A DNA stretch of 20,693 nucleotides. It comes from a virus. A program made the translations under genes and the position numbers. The DNA is taken from positions 1-20,693 of the IMG/VR virus record IMGVR_UViG_3300035698_018213; one strand, written 5' to 3'. The stretch's first letter is position 1, and each line of letters begins with the position of its first letter. The notes beneath the pieces are model-generated. The model searched no databases. It was not told where the DNA came from and was given only the letters and a program-made list of their open reading frames with translations. Shown here piece by piece: positions 6,674 through 13,792 of this stretch.

Positions 6674-7048
6674 ATGGCAATTAGAAAACACTCAACAGGA
6701 ACAAGAACTTTAACAGCTGCAACAGATTCATTTGAATTTACACAAGTACATGGGAAAGTTGTATGCATCGCAATTAAACCTAGTGGTGTTGCAACGGATT
6801 TTAGAATCACCACAACAAAAGCAGGTATAACAGAATACATTTTCGGAACGGCTGCGGTTGTAAGTGTTGCGGCGGTAGGGGTCATTCATTATCCTAAAGT
6901 TTTAGCACAAGATCTTGATGGTGTTGATTTAGCAACAACTGGTAATCTTTACAAAGATATTGTACTTAATGGTGACAGTGTTACAATTGCTGTAGCTGCT
7001 GGAACAACTTCTGAAACATGGGTAGTAGACATGTATGTCGAGGAATAA
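6674..7048 (+). CDS. Small beta-rich probable virion protein (124 aa)
   Basis: ATG at 6674 follows AGGAGG. The sequence is Thr/Val/Ala-rich and almost entirely beta strand (TRTLTAATDSFEFTQV, AAVVSVAAVGVIHYP, GDSVTIAVAAGTTSETWVVD), with few charges and no Cys cluster. Such composition is typical of small capsid decoration or adhesin-like proteins. The next gene starts two bases after its stop. The exact role is unknown; a virion surface or head-decoration role is inferred from composition and location. Confidence 0.65.
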   Translation: MAIRKHSTGTRTLTAATDSFEFTQVHGKVVCIAIKPSGVATDFRITTTKAGITEYIFGTAAVVSVAAVGVIHYPKVLAQDLDGVDLATTGNLYKDIVLNGDSVTIAVAAGTTSETWVVDMYVEE

Positions 7049-7049
7049 A

Positions 7050-7553
7050 ATGAAAACTGTAAAAGAATATTTAAATTCAACTAAGGGATATAATCCTCAT
7101 GTATCTTATAAAGAAATGTGTGATGGACAAAAAGATGTTGAAGAAGAACTCACTGGTCCTGGTGGACATGTTCCTGATGGTAGTGGACCATGTGGTTTAG
7201 GAAATGGTCCAGGAAATGGAAAAGGAGATGGAACTGGTTTAGAAGAAGAACAAGTTGAAAGTCAATTTGGAGATTTTCCAATGGATGCATTTCATGCAGG
7301 TTTAGAAACAGAATTAGCAGAACATCCAGAAGTTGGTGCAATGGGAGCAGCACAATTAGTTTTAGATCATCTTAAAGAAGACTCACAATATTATACTAAA
7401 GGAGAAGGTGAAATTGTGGATGAAGCAACTGGTATGACAACAAGAGTATCAAAGCCCGGTTATCATTGGGTTATGGGAAAGACTGGTGATTGGCAAGAAC
7501 TAAAAATAGAAACAGATGAAGAACCCATTAATGCTTTAAAAGTAGATCAATAA
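7050..7553 (+). CDS. Glycine-rich DUF5661-like phage protein
   Basis: ATG at 7050 is preferred to the in-frame ATGs at 7031/7035 because CGAGG lies just before it and after them. The first part (MKTVKEYLNSTKGYNPHVSY) resembles the short N-terminal segment of phage structural proteins. A Gly/Pro-rich section follows (GGHVPDGSGPCGLGNGPGNG), a pattern I have seen in phage proteins near portal genes. A helical domain comes next (GLETELAEHPEV, then LVLDHLKEDSQYYTK), which matches the DUF5661 pattern xALDHLxExPxYYTxL. The C-terminal part (PGYHWVMGKTGDWQE) is a small separate segment. Function of DUF5661 is unknown. Family call is from pattern memory. Confidence 0.65.
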   Translation: MKTVKEYLNSTKGYNPHVSYKEMCDGQKDVEEELTGPGGHVPDGSGPCGLGNGPGNGKGDGTGLEEEQVESQFGDFPMDAFHAGLETELAEHPEVGAMGAAQLVLDHLKEDSQYYTKGEGEIVDEATGMTTRVSKPGYHWVMGKTGDWQELKIETDEEPINALKVDQ

Positions 7554-8796: not shown

Positions 8797-9000
8797 ATGG
8801 ACTATGATGAAACTATATTAGAGTGTATTAGAAACAAGTATAAAACAGTGAGAGAGATTAGTTTAGAAACAAAGATCAATTACGGTAGAGTGGGAATTAG
8901 ATTGAAAATGTTACAAAAATATGAACTTGTAGATGATATACAATGTTTTACTAATTCTAGAGGTGTGAAGCCATTAAAGTTTAAAAGTAGACCAAATTAA
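8797..9000 (+). CDS. Winged helix-turn-helix DNA-binding protein (67 aa)
   Basis: ATG at 8797 has AGAGG about ten bases upstream. The short protein has an N-terminal helix (DETILECIRNK), a helix-turn-helix (KTVREISLETKINYGRVGIRLKMLQKY in two overlapping helices, about 16-42), and a wing-like end (ELVDDIQCFTNSRGVKPLKF). This is a minimal winged helix of the kind common in archaeal and phage regulators. Its stop codon lies inside the 22-bp repeat that probably starts the capsid transcript, so it is well placed to regulate that promoter or the structural genes in general. DNA binding is inferred from fold only. Confidence 0.75.
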   Translation: MDYDETILECIRNKYKTVREISLETKINYGRVGIRLKMLQKYELVDDIQCFTNSRGVKPLKFKSRPN

Positions 9001-9355: not shown

Positions 9356-10240
9356 ATGAAAGTTTACGAAAAGGTTTGGTTATCTCCTCAACAATTTAAG
9401 ATAGTTGAAACTTATGATGATAAAGATAGTGCTAAAGATTCCAGTTCTGTTCCAATAGGAGTAAAAATGAGAGGGACTGCCATTCATGGAGACACAGCAA
9501 CTAGAAATGGTATATCATATACTACACCATCACTGTCATCTTACTGTGATAGATTCAAAGAGCGTGGTAGATTTATTCCAATGCTTGACACACATAACGA
9601 TTCTTCTATAAGAACACACCCACCATTTGGACATATTGAAAATCTTAAAATGGATGGTAATAAATTATTGTATGAAGGAGATATTGACCCAGAAGAAAAA
9701 ATGTTCTTACGTAAAGCAAAACGAGGAGATTTAGGAGAGGTAAGCATACAAGCTATTGTAGATCAGATTGATGAACAAGAAAATGAAGAGACTGGAGAAA
9801 CAGTAGTTGTTGCTAATGTTAGAGAACTTCTAGAAATAAGTCCCGTAACAATAGCTGGTAGTAGAGATTCAAATATGCAATTCTTAGAAAAGATTGGAGA
9901 AAAAGTTACAAAAAAAACACTTCATACATTAGAAAAAAAATATGGTTTAGCAGTAACTGAAAAAAGATTAGTTGAAAAATTTAGAAGTGGAATATATAAA
10001 GAGCAAAATGATGAAGACTCAACTGTTCTTAACAACGGGGTTCCAGAAGATAAAGACGAAGAAAATCCAACAGTGAAGAAACCAAATAGAGAAGATGTTA
10101 CTTCGTCAAATAGTGACGGTATAGTTGGAACTAAACTTGGTAAAGATGTTAAGAAAGCACCTGAACCAGAATTAAAAAAACAATTAGAACGTGCTAATTT
10201 ATTAAAAAATTCAACAAAACGAATTAATTTATTGAGGTAA
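9356..10240 (+). CDS. Prohead maturation protease
   Basis: Processes capsid and scaffold proteins during head maturation. The N-terminal 180 residues show the herpesvirus/HK97-type serine protease pattern: PMLDTHND with probable catalytic His80, a glycine-anchored strand (FGHIENL), GEVSIQA with probable catalytic Ser130, and ELLEISPVTIAGSRDS (157-172), equivalent to the ExSLVxxPA segment. The C-terminal 110 residues are charged, helical and linker-like. This tail contains REDVTSSNS at 245-253, nearly identical to REDVTTSNS in the capsid N-terminus, so the tail may be self-cleaved. ATG at 9356 lies two bases after the preceding stop, with little Shine-Dalgarno signal, so coupling is likely. 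Position before scaffold and capsid is standard. Confidence 0.88.
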   Translation: MKVYEKVWLSPQQFKIVETYDDKDSAKDSSSVPIGVKMRGTAIHGDTATRNGISYTTPSLSSYCDRFKERGRFIPMLDTHNDSSIRTHPPFGHIENLKMDGNKLLYEGDIDPEEKMFLRKAKRGDLGEVSIQAIVDQIDEQENEETGETVVVANVRELLEISPVTIAGSRDSNMQFLEKIGEKVTKKTLHTLEKKYGLAVTEKRLVEKFRSGIYKEQNDEDSTVLNNGVPEDKDEENPTVKKPNREDVTSSNSDGIVGTKLGKDVKKAPEPELKKQLERANLLKNSTKRINLLR

Positions 10241-10247
10241 AATAAAA

Positions 10248-11336
10248 ATGACAACAACAAACGCAACAAATAATGTAAGTCATTTAAGTATTGCTACTTT
10301 TGAAATGACGGATGACGTTACAATTACTGCTGGAAATCCTCTTCTACTAACAAGTGGGAAAGTATTACAACCCACATCAACTGCAATTGTGACAACAGCT
10401 ATTGGTGTAGCTAGTTCAACAAAAACTTTTACATCAAAATCAACAACAGGACAACAAGAATATATGGGTGTTATTACAGAAGGCCAATTACTTTTTACAG
10501 GTTTAGTAGAAGCATCAGGTACATATACAACTGCTATTGCCGTCGGCGATTATGTAAGTTTGTATTATGATGGTACAAATTTTTATGTTGTAAAAGATTC
10601 AACTGCTCCAATTGGAAAAGTTATAGATGGAAATGTAGACAGTGGGTCATCTGATGAAACCGCTGATTTGATTATTGATTGTAATTTTGCAGTAGAATCT
10701 ATTAATCCTAACGAAGTGTTCATTTCTGATTACACTTTCAATACACTAGCTGTTAATTCAACATTAGCTGTCACTGGTATTACTACTTTGACTGGTTCAT
10801 TAGTTCTAAATAATAAATTAGCACTAACAGATAGTCAATCAGGTGGAGCAAGTAATGGTTCAGTTATTAAGAAACAATTAGTTGCAGGTGAAGCTTATAC
10901 TGGAACAACAGCCGGAACCATGGTTAAAATGTATGGTGAATCAACGGCAACAGTACCGAGTGGAGAGTTCACAGGTTTTTATGTATCATTAAAAGGTTTA
11001 CATACAGACCCAGGAAATAATACTTCAATAATTTCAGCACACGTACACGCGAGTAATACTACAGTTGTTCATGCAGGATTATGGTTATATGGAGATATGA
11101 CTAATGGTCTGAAAATGAGCGGTTCAACACTAACAAGTGCGCTAGATATTTCAGAAGCTACAGCAGTTACTAATATATTTTCAGTACCCGCTGCAGGTAC
11201 AGCACCAGTTACAGCAAATGCTTTAGTTCCAGCAACGGCACCAGATGCTACTACTGTTGGAGCAGATGCATCGTTAACAGTGGATGTAGCTGGAACACCA
11301 TATTATATTGCTTTGTATGATACATTACATGCATAA
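10248..11336 (+). CDS. Capsid cement (DUF2190-like) protein fused to a fibre-like domain
   Basis: ATG at 10248 with a GAGG site overlapping the protease stop region. Residues about 1-150 match the DUF2190/capsid-cement pattern: GNPLLLTSGKVLQP, TAIGVASSTKTF, a VITEGQLLFTGLVEASG strand pair, AVGDYVSLYYDGTNF, IGKVIDGNVDSG, ADLIIDC. A short repetitive linker (LAVNSTLAVTGITTLTGSL) leads to a C-terminal, Ser/Thr/Gly-rich beta domain ending in ADASLTVDVAGTPYYIALYDTL, a form I associate with phage surface or fibre proteins. Together this suggests a head decoration protein with a protruding outer domain. A hairpin-less T-rich tract follows, so it probably ends a strong transcript. The domain split is inferred. 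Confidence 0.75.
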   Translation: MTTTNATNNVSHLSIATFEMTDDVTITAGNPLLLTSGKVLQPTSTAIVTTAIGVASSTKTFTSKSTTGQQEYMGVITEGQLLFTGLVEASGTYTTAIAVGDYVSLYYDGTNFYVVKDSTAPIGKVIDGNVDSGSSDETADLIIDCNFAVESINPNEVFISDYTFNTLAVNSTLAVTGITTLTGSLVLNNKLALTDSQSGGASNGSVIKKQLVAGEAYTGTTAGTMVKMYGESTATVPSGEFTGFYVSLKGLHTDPGNNTSIISAHVHASNTTVVHAGLWLYGDMTNGLKMSGSTLTSALDISEATAVTNIFSVPAAGTAPVTANALVPATAPDATTVGADASLTVDVAGTPYYIALYDTLHA

Positions 11337-11343
11337 GTAAATA

Positions 11344-11358
11344 TTTTTTTATTTTTTT
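11344..11358 (+). terminator. Hairpin-less T-tract after the cement/fibre gene
   Basis: Two runs of seven T separated by one A follow the stop codon by few bases. No GC-rich hairpin precedes them. U-rich tracts of this kind terminate transcription in archaea; a bacterial intrinsic terminator would need a stem. Confidence 0.45.
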
Positions 11359-11382
11359 ACATTAATTAAACCCGAGGTAAAT

Positions 11383-11715
11383 ATGAAATTAACAATAAAA
11401 GAACGATTAATGGCAACTTCAATAATAGCACCATTATTATTGGCAAATGATTATGAAACTATTAAAATTTTAGTTGAGTTAAAACAAAGTTTGTCTTTTA
11501 CAGATCAAGAACATGAAGATTATGGTCTTGTTTTTACTGGTGATAAAGCTGATTGGAAACCAGAGGTTAACAATCTTGAAAAAGATATATCATTTGGTAA
11601 AGATGCTTTTAAAATAATTAATAATGAACTGAAAAAATTAGATGTTACAAAGAAGTTAACTCAAGATTCGTTGTCTTTGTATGAAAAAATTGTGAATTTT
11701 AAACTGGAGGATTAA
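11383..11715 (+). CDS. Conserved-looking small hypothetical protein (110 aa)
   Basis: ATG at 11383 follows CGAGG. The protein is helical: an N-terminal segment (MKLTIKERLMATSIIAPLLL), a helix (DYETIKILVELKQSLSFTDQ), an EHEDYGLVFTGD turn, and a C-terminal helical part (FKIINNELKKLDVTKKLTQD). It resembles short uncharacterised phage proteins with the order IERLLLLGILP, then IKxLxELxxxLSFTxEEH, then KKLTxExxxLYEKF; I recall the pattern but not a function. It sits between cement and scaffold. Not a signal peptide protein despite the hydrophobic start, because the hydrophobic stretch is short. Confidence 0.65.
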   Translation: MKLTIKERLMATSIIAPLLLANDYETIKILVELKQSLSFTDQEHEDYGLVFTGDKADWKPEVNNLEKDISFGKDAFKIINNELKKLDVTKKLTQDSLSLYEKIVNFKLED

Positions 11716-11721
11716 ATAAAA

Positions 11722-12729
11722 ATGAAAAAAGTAACAAAGGAATTTAAGATGCAAGTGGATGTTACACCACTTGAAGACGAGGACGATAAAATGCAAGATC
11801 AAAATACAGATGACGTTAAAACCGAAGAAAACGGTGAACAAGATATGTCTTCTATTGCTTCAGCTTTGCAAAATATTAATGATGCAATTGCTAATATTGA
11901 TTCAAGATTAAACAACCTTGAAAGTGGCGATAAAATAGAAGAAGAAATTAACGAAGACCCGGTTACAGATGATGATGAAGGAATTATACAAGAAGATTTG
12001 AAAGGAGTTCCTGAAAGACCACAAGGTAAAAAATCAGAAAAACCCGCAACACCTACTGCACAAACTGTACCTAAAGCTGGAGAACAAAATCCAAACCCTA
12101 TTCCACAAGGTCAAACACAAGTAGCTACAGGAGATTCTCCTGGAAATTCAATGGACCCTGCTGGTAATAAAGATGGAGACGACAACGGAGCAGAAGGAAA
12201 AGTTCTAAAACCTAGTAGTGATATTACTAGACCAGCTGTTAAGAAAAATTCTATGGATAGCGACGAAGACGATACAGACGATAAAAAAGAAGAAGCTGTT
12301 GAAGACGACGAAGATAAAAAAGAAGAAGGAATGGAAGGAGACGACCCAAGTAAACCAAAACCTGGTTTGGAAGCACCTGCAAATCCTGATGCAATGAAAC
12401 AATCAGAAAGTTACATTGACGTAGAATTAAAAAGACTAAAAGAACACATGGACAAATTAGAATCTATGAAAAGATCAACTAAAACTGAAGATGTGTTTAA
12501 AGAATCAAATTCAGAAGACCTTACACAGAGACAAAGCGTTGCAGGAAACGTTAGAAGTGAGAGCAAGAACAGAGATGTCAACCTAAGTGCAGACGATGCA
12601 TCAAGATTAGACGCTGCTCAAGAAAACTATTTGGAAACTAAATCAACAGTGGCTAGTACCATTAAAGAATATTTAGCAAAAAGTAGTAGTGTATCACCGG
12701 CGACAAGAAGAATGTTTGGTATGAGATAA
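11722..12729 (+). CDS. Probable capsid scaffolding protein
   Basis: ATG at 11722 follows CTGGAGG. A short N-terminal segment and a coiled coil (about 43-68, SSIASALQNINDAIANIDSR) are followed by a long disordered, very acidic and Pro/Gly-rich region (about 70-225, many Asp/Glu/Lys), a second helical coil (YIDVELKRLKEHMDKLESMK, 231-250), and a basic C-terminal helix ending ATRRMFGMR. This low-complexity acidic/helical layout with a basic capsid-binding end, placed immediately before the major capsid gene, is what scaffolding proteins look like. EDVFKESNS at 256-264 resembles the motif shared by protease and capsid. Length is at the upper end for scaffolds. An internal virion protein is the alternative. 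Confidence 0.7.
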   Translation: MKKVTKEFKMQVDVTPLEDEDDKMQDQNTDDVKTEENGEQDMSSIASALQNINDAIANIDSRLNNLESGDKIEEEINEDPVTDDDEGIIQEDLKGVPERPQGKKSEKPATPTAQTVPKAGEQNPNPIPQGQTQVATGDSPGNSMDPAGNKDGDDNGAEGKVLKPSSDITRPAVKKNSMDSDEDDTDDKKEEAVEDDEDKKEEGMEGDDPSKPKPGLEAPANPDAMKQSESYIDVELKRLKEHMDKLESMKRSTKTEDVFKESNSEDLTQRQSVAGNVRSESKNRDVNLSADDASRLDAAQENYLETKSTVASTIKEYLAKSSSVSPATRRMFGMR

Positions 12730-12757
12730 AACCATTATATACAAGGAGGAAAATAGA

Positions 12758-13792
12758 ATGGGAAACTTAGCTAATAGCGCTATTGAACAAGGCTTTTTTG
12801 AACATGGTAGCAAAATTGCAGAATCCGCAGGTAAATTACTTGTAGGGGACATGTTAAAGAAAGGGGTTTCAATAGAAGCTTTAAAAGAAGATTTAAACCT
12901 TAAAGAAGGTTACAGAACAAGAGAAGACGTTACCACAAGTAACTCTAATGCTTTATATGTTACAGGTCTAGCATCTGTTATTAGAGCGGCAGTTGAACCT
13001 AATATGGTTGGTTTGGAAGTATTACAGTTAAACACTGACCTTATGAATGGTGGTGGAAAAGGAGCAATCCAACTTCCAAAAGAACAAAGAATAACTGCGG
13101 CTGAAGTAGGAGAAGGCGGAACTGTTTCATACACAGGCGTTGGATACACTTCAATAACTGTTACACCTACCAAGAAAATTGCAGCATCAAAAATTACTTG
13201 GGAAATGGTACAAAGAGGAATGATTTCATTAATTACAGCTGAAGCTGCAAGATGCGGAAAAGCACTTGCAAGAAAAGTTGATAGTGACATTATATCTGGA
13301 ATTGAGGCAATTATAACATCTGGAAACAGTAATAGAACTGCAACAGGTGGAGCATCTACAAGAGTATCATATAATGATCTTATTGATGCAAGAGCTGACA
13401 TTGAAGGATATGAGGTTGGTGGATTTCACGCAACTCACCTAATTGTACACCCTGACGATTACGCTGCTTTAAGCAAAGATACTGATTTCAAGAACGCTTT
13501 ATACAGAGCACCCGTAGTAGCTGGTTCTGGTGGAAGTGCAACTGCAACTTTATTCCCAGTAATGGAATACTTTGGAGACGCTAAAATCATAAGAACTGCT
13601 CAAATTACTACTGGAACATCAGTCTTCGTAGATTCAACTGAGCTTGGAACTTTTGTCCAGGAATCAGATGTAGAAGTTGTAGATGGAAGAATTAACGGAA
13701 GCGTTGATACTGAAATTATTGCACTTCAATCATACGGAATTGGTATCCAAAACGTAAGAGCTGCATCCGGCGTTATTATGGCTGCATCTTAA
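12758..13792 (+). CDS. Major capsid protein, HK97 fold
   Basis: Main shell protein. ATG at 12758 has AAGGAGG at good spacing; ATTATATACA just upstream is weakly TATA-like. The N-terminal 55 residues are helical (a delta-domain candidate), followed by REDVTTSNS at 55-63. The mature domain has an N-arm/E-loop region (TDLMNGGGKGAIQLPKEQ), SYTGVGYTSITVTPTKKIAASKITWEM, the long spine helix (AAEAARCGKALARKVDSDII), GFHATHLIVHPDDYAAL in the P/A domain, and a C-terminal strand pair near YGIGIQNVRAASGVIM. Length of 344 residues is typical. The order protease, scaffold, capsid supports the call. The T-rich tract after it suggests a high-level transcript ending here. Confidence 0.93.
   Translation: MGNLANSAIEQGFFEHGSKIAESAGKLLVGDMLKKGVSIEALKEDLNLKEGYRTREDVTTSNSNALYVTGLASVIRAAVEPNMVGLEVLQLNTDLMNGGGKGAIQLPKEQRITAAEVGEGGTVSYTGVGYTSITVTPTKKIAASKITWEMVQRGMISLITAEAARCGKALARKVDSDIISGIEAIITSGNSNRTATGGASTRVSYNDLIDARADIEGYEVGGFHATHLIVHPDDYAALSKDTDFKNALYRAPVVAGSGGSATATLFPVMEYFGDAKIIRTAQITTGTSVFVDSTELGTFVQESDVEVVDGRINGSVDTEIIALQSYGIGIQNVRAASGVIMAAS

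Follow-up and report, generated by a model that had tools for sequence, protein, structure and literature searches.

A capsid N-arm-like module in the tail of a predicted prohead protease from uncultured tailed viruses

In phages T4 and SPN3US, the protease, the capsid protein and other head proteins are all cut at one code during maturation (PMC9026906, PMC10052503). T4 gp21 cleaves after L/I-x-E (PMC9026906), and SPN3US gp245 cleaves after A-x-E and also removes its own 64-residue C-terminal propeptide (PMC10052503). The propeptides of gp21 have been proposed to target the enzyme, and the entry of a prohead protease into the shell, together with the reason for its self-trimming, represents a major gap even for T4 (PMC9026906).

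We analysed virus record IMGVR_UViG_3300035698_018213 at its full length, positions 1 to 20,693 (the window), together with 12 related contigs from IMG/VR, all from a group of uncultured tailed viruses. The protease of one of these 13 contigs (L011) lies outside its contig fragment, leaving a readable protease in 12, and another contig, L043, was fetched later and left out of the profile described below. Close relatives of the window proteins were not found among the cultured phages scanned, nor were relatives of the window found in cellular genomes by two kinds of scan.

The locus combines features of several described systems (Table 1). With T4 gp21/gp23 it shares the protease fold, the gene order protease-scaffold-capsid and a glutamate before the candidate cut (residue 65 of gp23 ends LTE). 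With HK97 gp4/gp5 it shares an HK97-fold capsid protein, an N-terminal pre-domain and a separate protease, with the pre-domain being a prediction here, but it differs from HK97 in its separate scaffold gene and short pre-domain (about 36-56 aa). The protease fold is also that of herpesvirus assemblin/UL26, with weaker matches; unlike in UL26, protease and scaffold are separate in the window, and the element shared by two proteins is capsid-like. The UL26/UL26.5 arrangement is resembled by L004 and L007, where protease, zinc ribbon and scaffold occupy one open frame (L004:2194-4122 and L007:1922-3844) that has an internal Met where the scaffold begins; in L005 and L006 the same genes form two adjacent frames.

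Table 1. Features of the protease-capsid locus, with positions in the window.
Feature	Position	Strand	Basis
Prohead (head maturation) protease, 294 aa, predicted T4 gp21/herpes assemblin fold	9356..10240	+	PHROG, model, invariant columns
Capsid-N-arm-like module, protease residues 245-271, REDVTSSNSDGIVGTKLGKDVKKAPEP, 27 aa, in low-confidence tail	10088..10168	+	
Predicted C-terminal helix behind module, protease residues 272-293	10169..10234	+	DSSP on model
Acidic scaffold-like protein between protease and capsid	11722..12729	+	Alignment of 12 scaffolds
HK97-fold major capsid protein, 344 aa	12758..13792	+	Pfam, PHROG
Predicted pre-domain (delta-like) and length-variable linker, capsid residues 1-54	12758..12919	+	
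NLKEG, capsid residues 47-51, alternative candidate gp21-type site LKE50/G	12896..12910	+	[LF][KR]E kept in relatives
Capsid residues 55-81, REDVTTSNSNALYVTGLASVIRAAVEP, candidate processing site (after E56) and putative start of mature N-arm	12920..13000	+	

The window enzyme is predicted to be a prohead protease of the gp21/assemblin fold. It matched the PHROG head maturation protease profile (E 1.5e-8), and its predicted structure, which was of good quality over residues about 12-165, matched T4 gp21 (5jbl; E 1.8e-5, prob 1.00), herpesvirus assemblins more weakly, and many prohead proteases in BFVD at E < 1e-6. Its score against PF04586 was 17.4 bits against a curated cut-off of 21, which the L043 protease exceeded with 38 bits. 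His80 (DTHND) and Ser130 (VSIQ) were unchanged in the alignment of 11 relatives and are the predicted active-site residues. In the C-terminal tail of the model, DSSP assigned a helix to residues 273-293 (pLDDT about 43-54), which may form part of the C-terminal propeptide proposed below.

The capsid protein matched Pfam Phage_capsid_4 (E 6e-12), the PHROG major head protein (E 1.4e-13), PF25209 (46.8 bits, cut-off 27) and PF05065 (27.8 bits, cut-off 24.2). Its core matched the solved structure 8qpq, which we take to be HFTV1, and Gp6 marginally, neither of which covers the N-terminus; the paper on HFTV1 says nothing of cleavage. Our own capsid fold model was too poor (pLDDT 37) to place the N-arm. 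In a low-confidence model, the pre-domain contained helices at residues 19-34 and 39-45; a match of the N-terminal helix to the designed repeat 8etq was judged composition-driven and rejected, and a profile search for homology to the T4 gp23 N-arm returned no significant match.

A preliminary description of this DNA had pointed out a nonapeptide common to the two proteins: the protease has REDVTSSNS (residues 245-253, 10088-10114) and the capsid protein has REDVTTSNS (residues 55-63, 12920-12946), with differing codons. Our analysis confirmed these positions and showed that only 17 of the 27 bases and 3 of the 9 codons are identical, so that the identity lies at the protein level. The protease copy was said to lie in the tail of the enzyme, which indeed had low confidence in the model and is probably disordered. 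The capsid copy, said to mark the boundary between delta domain and mature protein, sits just past the length-variable linker and opens the strongly conserved capsid body.

The resemblance proved better than had been claimed. Among all pairs of the 31 window proteins, the two 9-mers were the sole 8/9 match (runner-up 7/9), and the ungapped local score of protease versus capsid, 63, was the top of 465 pairs, followed by 49. Shuffling gave p about 3e-5 for this pair, and BLASTP gave E = 3e-5. The alignment extends over 27 residues without gaps rather than nine, closing with T-x-L-x6-A-x-E-P, and has the common signature [RK]E[DE][VIM]xTxN[SA]xx[LI]xxTxLxxx[IV][RK]xAxEP. The 18 residues past the 9-mer were similar by themselves in every tested pair (shuffle p 4e-4 to about 1e-5). 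In L002, the protease-capsid match reached further upstream (shuffle p 4e-6), and the best match in L043 covered 42 residues (p 2e-6); that in L003, taken singly, was weaker (p 0.018).

As a control, the same local comparison was made in T4, HK97, SPN3US, Mcat3, MTATph1 and KLEB27-3, and none of these six phages showed a significant protease-capsid match (p 0.16-0.76), compared with p 5e-5 for the window. The values for T4 (p 0.27), HK97 (p 0.33) and SPN3US gp245 and gp75 (p 0.22) set these systems apart from the window, where the extended segment is shared. A shared cleavage code by itself thus does not produce such similarity. The capsids of Moorella phage MTATph1 and Bacillus phage KLEB27-3 resemble that of the window in an N-arm of the form [RT]EALxTxDAxIL...EAAEP, which has the same signature (VREALSTTDASILIPQVITGVMREAAEP in MTATph1), whereas their proteases contain no module copy.

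Within the virus group, the capsid motif was present in 13 of 13 capsids. The protease tails of L002 (REEITTGNSDGLVGTGLSKKIKKAPEP) and L003 (REEIGTDNAGDLTATVLPKKVKKASEP) carry the 27-residue module, and so does that of L043 (KEDINTSNADALITTDLTKKVKKQPEP), which was detected at E 3.8e-13 by the profile built without it. The L008 protease has a degenerate module, with the later part kept and ED lost (E 8e-6), and L009 a partial, gapped one. In L018, the module is absent from the protease and present, as KEDVTTGNAGGLMTTVLPKKIRRAKEP, in a 690-aa pre-portal protein. No module copy was found in the proteases of L004, L006 and L012, and those of L005 and L007 showed a weak trace at most, such as KEITTTNGEGII in the former (E about 0.9). 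A clear protease copy is therefore missing in these 5 of the 12 readable relatives, whose lineages have a zinc ribbon in the protease tail, and L018 is a sixth case. When the five clear non-capsid copies were made into a profile, it matched all 13 capsids and the L008 protease among 1688 ORFs, and nothing further below E = 0.8. A DNA pattern of the module (39 bits), run against 2.9 million viral contigs, matched this virus group only, which shows specificity and not completeness because the pattern was derived from these sequences.

The modules are 44-67% identical among themselves, compared with 31-42% for protease bodies outside the closest relatives, and the non-capsid copies, including that of the L018 pre-portal protein, share a signature of their own, T-x-L-x-K-x-[VI]-[KR]-[KR]. 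Joint conservation in protease and capsid is real, since the module recurs in diverged relatives, in the held-out L043 and in the L018 pre-portal protein. Co-variation, the check suggested in the preliminary description, was borne out to the extent that several pairs were jointly conserved; this did not extend to all relatives. Own-genome combinations matched better than swapped ones: over 120 permutations they came out best for the 27-mer and at 2 of 120 for the 9-mer. With five pairs that share ancestry this is weak support, and a Mantel-type test was not significant (r 0.39, p 0.14), so phylogeny could explain the own-pair matching.

The preliminary description had gone on to propose that REDVTxSNS is the recognition sequence of the protease, found wherever the enzyme cuts, in the capsid protein as in itself. 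The joint conservation and the boundary position lend this partial support, and a glutamate at P1 with a basic P2 was kept in all capsids and in all five clear non-capsid copies. Moreover, T4 gp21 and SPN3US gp245 provide precedents for glutamate-directed cleavage, in the latter case including self-cleavage (PMC9026906, PMC10052503), and the capsid sites agree with [LF][KR]E in 10 of 13 relatives, where this tripeptide directly precedes the motif; the window, L002 and L003 capsids have T/A/V-R-E at the motif and L[KR]E six residues upstream. However, known shared codes comprise about three residues and come without an extended match between protease and capsid, while the similarity found here runs at least 18 residues beyond any plausible cut into the capsid N-arm, with the primed side conserved to P'25. 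L008 drops ED yet keeps the later part, several relatives have the motif in the capsid while their protease has no clear copy, and the copy reported in the scaffold is not conserved. We therefore consider this reading unlikely, and REDVTxSNS is probably not the cleavage code.

Two proteins hint at a possible shorter code. A 648-aa pre-portal protein of L043 (L043:923-2866), a string of small domains (DUF5661 and others) resembling a head polyprotein that the prohead protease would process, contains nine [LF][KR]E sites versus 0.9 expected, and six of the nine are ESL[KR]E or ESFRE versus 0.01 expected. After the catalytic part of the L018 protease fusion there are six [LF][KR]E versus 0.94 expected. 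Neither the reversed motif nor its D and Q variants showed enrichment. We infer that the repeats link small domains and are probably cut, as happens in other phages whose packaged head proteins are processed. The ESL[KR]E-type sites of L043 and L018 continue with G, A, S, I, Q or Y rather than with DVTT, which also argues against REDVTxSNS as the code. Across genes, N-terminal [hydrophobic][KR]E propeptides were not significantly enriched (11 seen versus 7.5 expected). The capsid segment thus seems to combine two adjacent elements, a short glutamate-directed processing site, probably T4-gp21-like and after E56 or E50, and the start of the mature N-arm, and the protease tail would mimic both. 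Among the N-terminal 100 residues, indels across relatives are confined to the pre-domain and linker; together with the conservation, this suggests a boundary at which the N-terminal region would be removed at maturation. With the processing site and arm reproduced in the protease tail, the mature capsid N-terminus is no longer a mere guess but can be predicted narrowly, to follow E50 or E56.

The explanation we prefer, which we judge about as apt to be right as wrong, is that the C-terminal propeptide of the protease mimics the capsid N-arm, docks the enzyme in the procapsid and is self-cleaved at maturation. Protease residues 245-271 would copy capsid residues 55-81, comprising the glutamate-directed site (R-E/D) and the first ~25 residues of the mature N-arm, and the tail would dock inside the procapsid at or near the position of the N-arm or delta domain. 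Once the shell is complete, the protease would make equivalent cuts in the capsid subunits and in its tail, thereby freeing itself; E246 of the module is a candidate autocleavage point, and the tail may be cut at E246/D247 or at IYKE216/Q. This reading is favoured because the low-confidence tail, the helix behind the module, the self-cleavage of gp245, which, as we propose here, has a C-terminal propeptide and uses a single code to cut itself and its capsid, and the targeting role proposed for the gp21 propeptides all fit it. On the other side, the P3 residues of the protease copies (N, N, N, S, in N/S-[RK]-E) misfit the hydrophobic P3 of the putative [LF][KR]E code, the L018 copy having I-K-E; the L003 match, taken singly, is weaker; and the proteases of L004, L006 and L012 have no module. 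If the proposal is true, the capsid-like tail gives, for one virus group, a concrete and testable answer to how the protease enters the shell and why it trims itself.

The module, which resembles a substrate and lies in a flexible part of the enzyme's own chain, could alternatively act as a built-in pseudosubstrate, occupying the active site and silencing the protease until shell assembly, and the non-consensus P3 of the protease copies would suit such a role. This would leave unexplained both the likeness to the N-arm over 18 residues beyond the site and the L018 module in a different protein, and we find it improbable. Nor do we give much credence to a relic of an ancestral protease-capsid fusion, in which the start of the capsid arm would have stayed with the protease after the two genes split, with little function at present. 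A fusion of this kind is suggested by phrog_617, a family of long 'major head protein' whose first part is matched by the L043 protease and whose second part by the L043 capsid, and one is annotated in PAJU2, but the module was not detected at the PAJU2 junction, it is better conserved than the protease body, and the non-capsid copies have their own signature, also in the unrelated pre-portal protein of L018. Chance resemblance of charged, low-information segments, of which about 0.016 such pairs would be expected over the 465 pairs of the window by shuffling, has a negligible claim, mainly because the same module recurs in other protease tails, those of L002, L003 and L043, of which the held-out L043 refutes it.

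The occurrence in L018 raises the wider possibility, which we put forward only tentatively, that N-arm mimicry is a targeting device of head proteins in this group: a portable 27-residue look-alike would dock its carrier, the protease or the L018 pre-portal protein, and the glutamate site would release it. The module, if this is true, would be a portable tag for placing proteins inside capsids. The 690-aa protein (L018:2-1051; full gene L038:4678-6747) has, besides the module, zinc ribbons and a weak match to N-formylglutamate amidohydrolase, and homing-endonuclease-like ORFs lie between its gene and the portal.

Between the protease and capsid genes lie those for a 362-aa protein, a 110-aa protein and the scaffold-like protein. 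A looser copy of the nonapeptide, EDVFKESNS, had been noted in the scaffold; it is present at residues 256-264 (12487-12513), but an alignment of 12 scaffolds showed no conservation beyond L002, which has NNVFKESQS, and L003 has no equivalent, so this third copy was discarded as spurious. Near the scaffold C-terminus, E[YF][LV] is conserved, with [VI][KR] before it in most relatives. Two patches, [RK][QK][ST]-hydrophobic and [VI][KR]E[YF]L (window 12529-12549 and 12661-12675), are conserved in 12 relatives and are candidates for a release site and a capsid-binding tail. The 362-aa protein (window 10248-11336) resembles a post-capsid protein of L004 and L005, and its counterpart in L002, which contains an internal repeat, is about twice as long. 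The second-best 9-mer of the window, RNKMKTVKE/RNKYKTVRE, is shared by two other small proteins (window 7035-7553 and 8797-9000).
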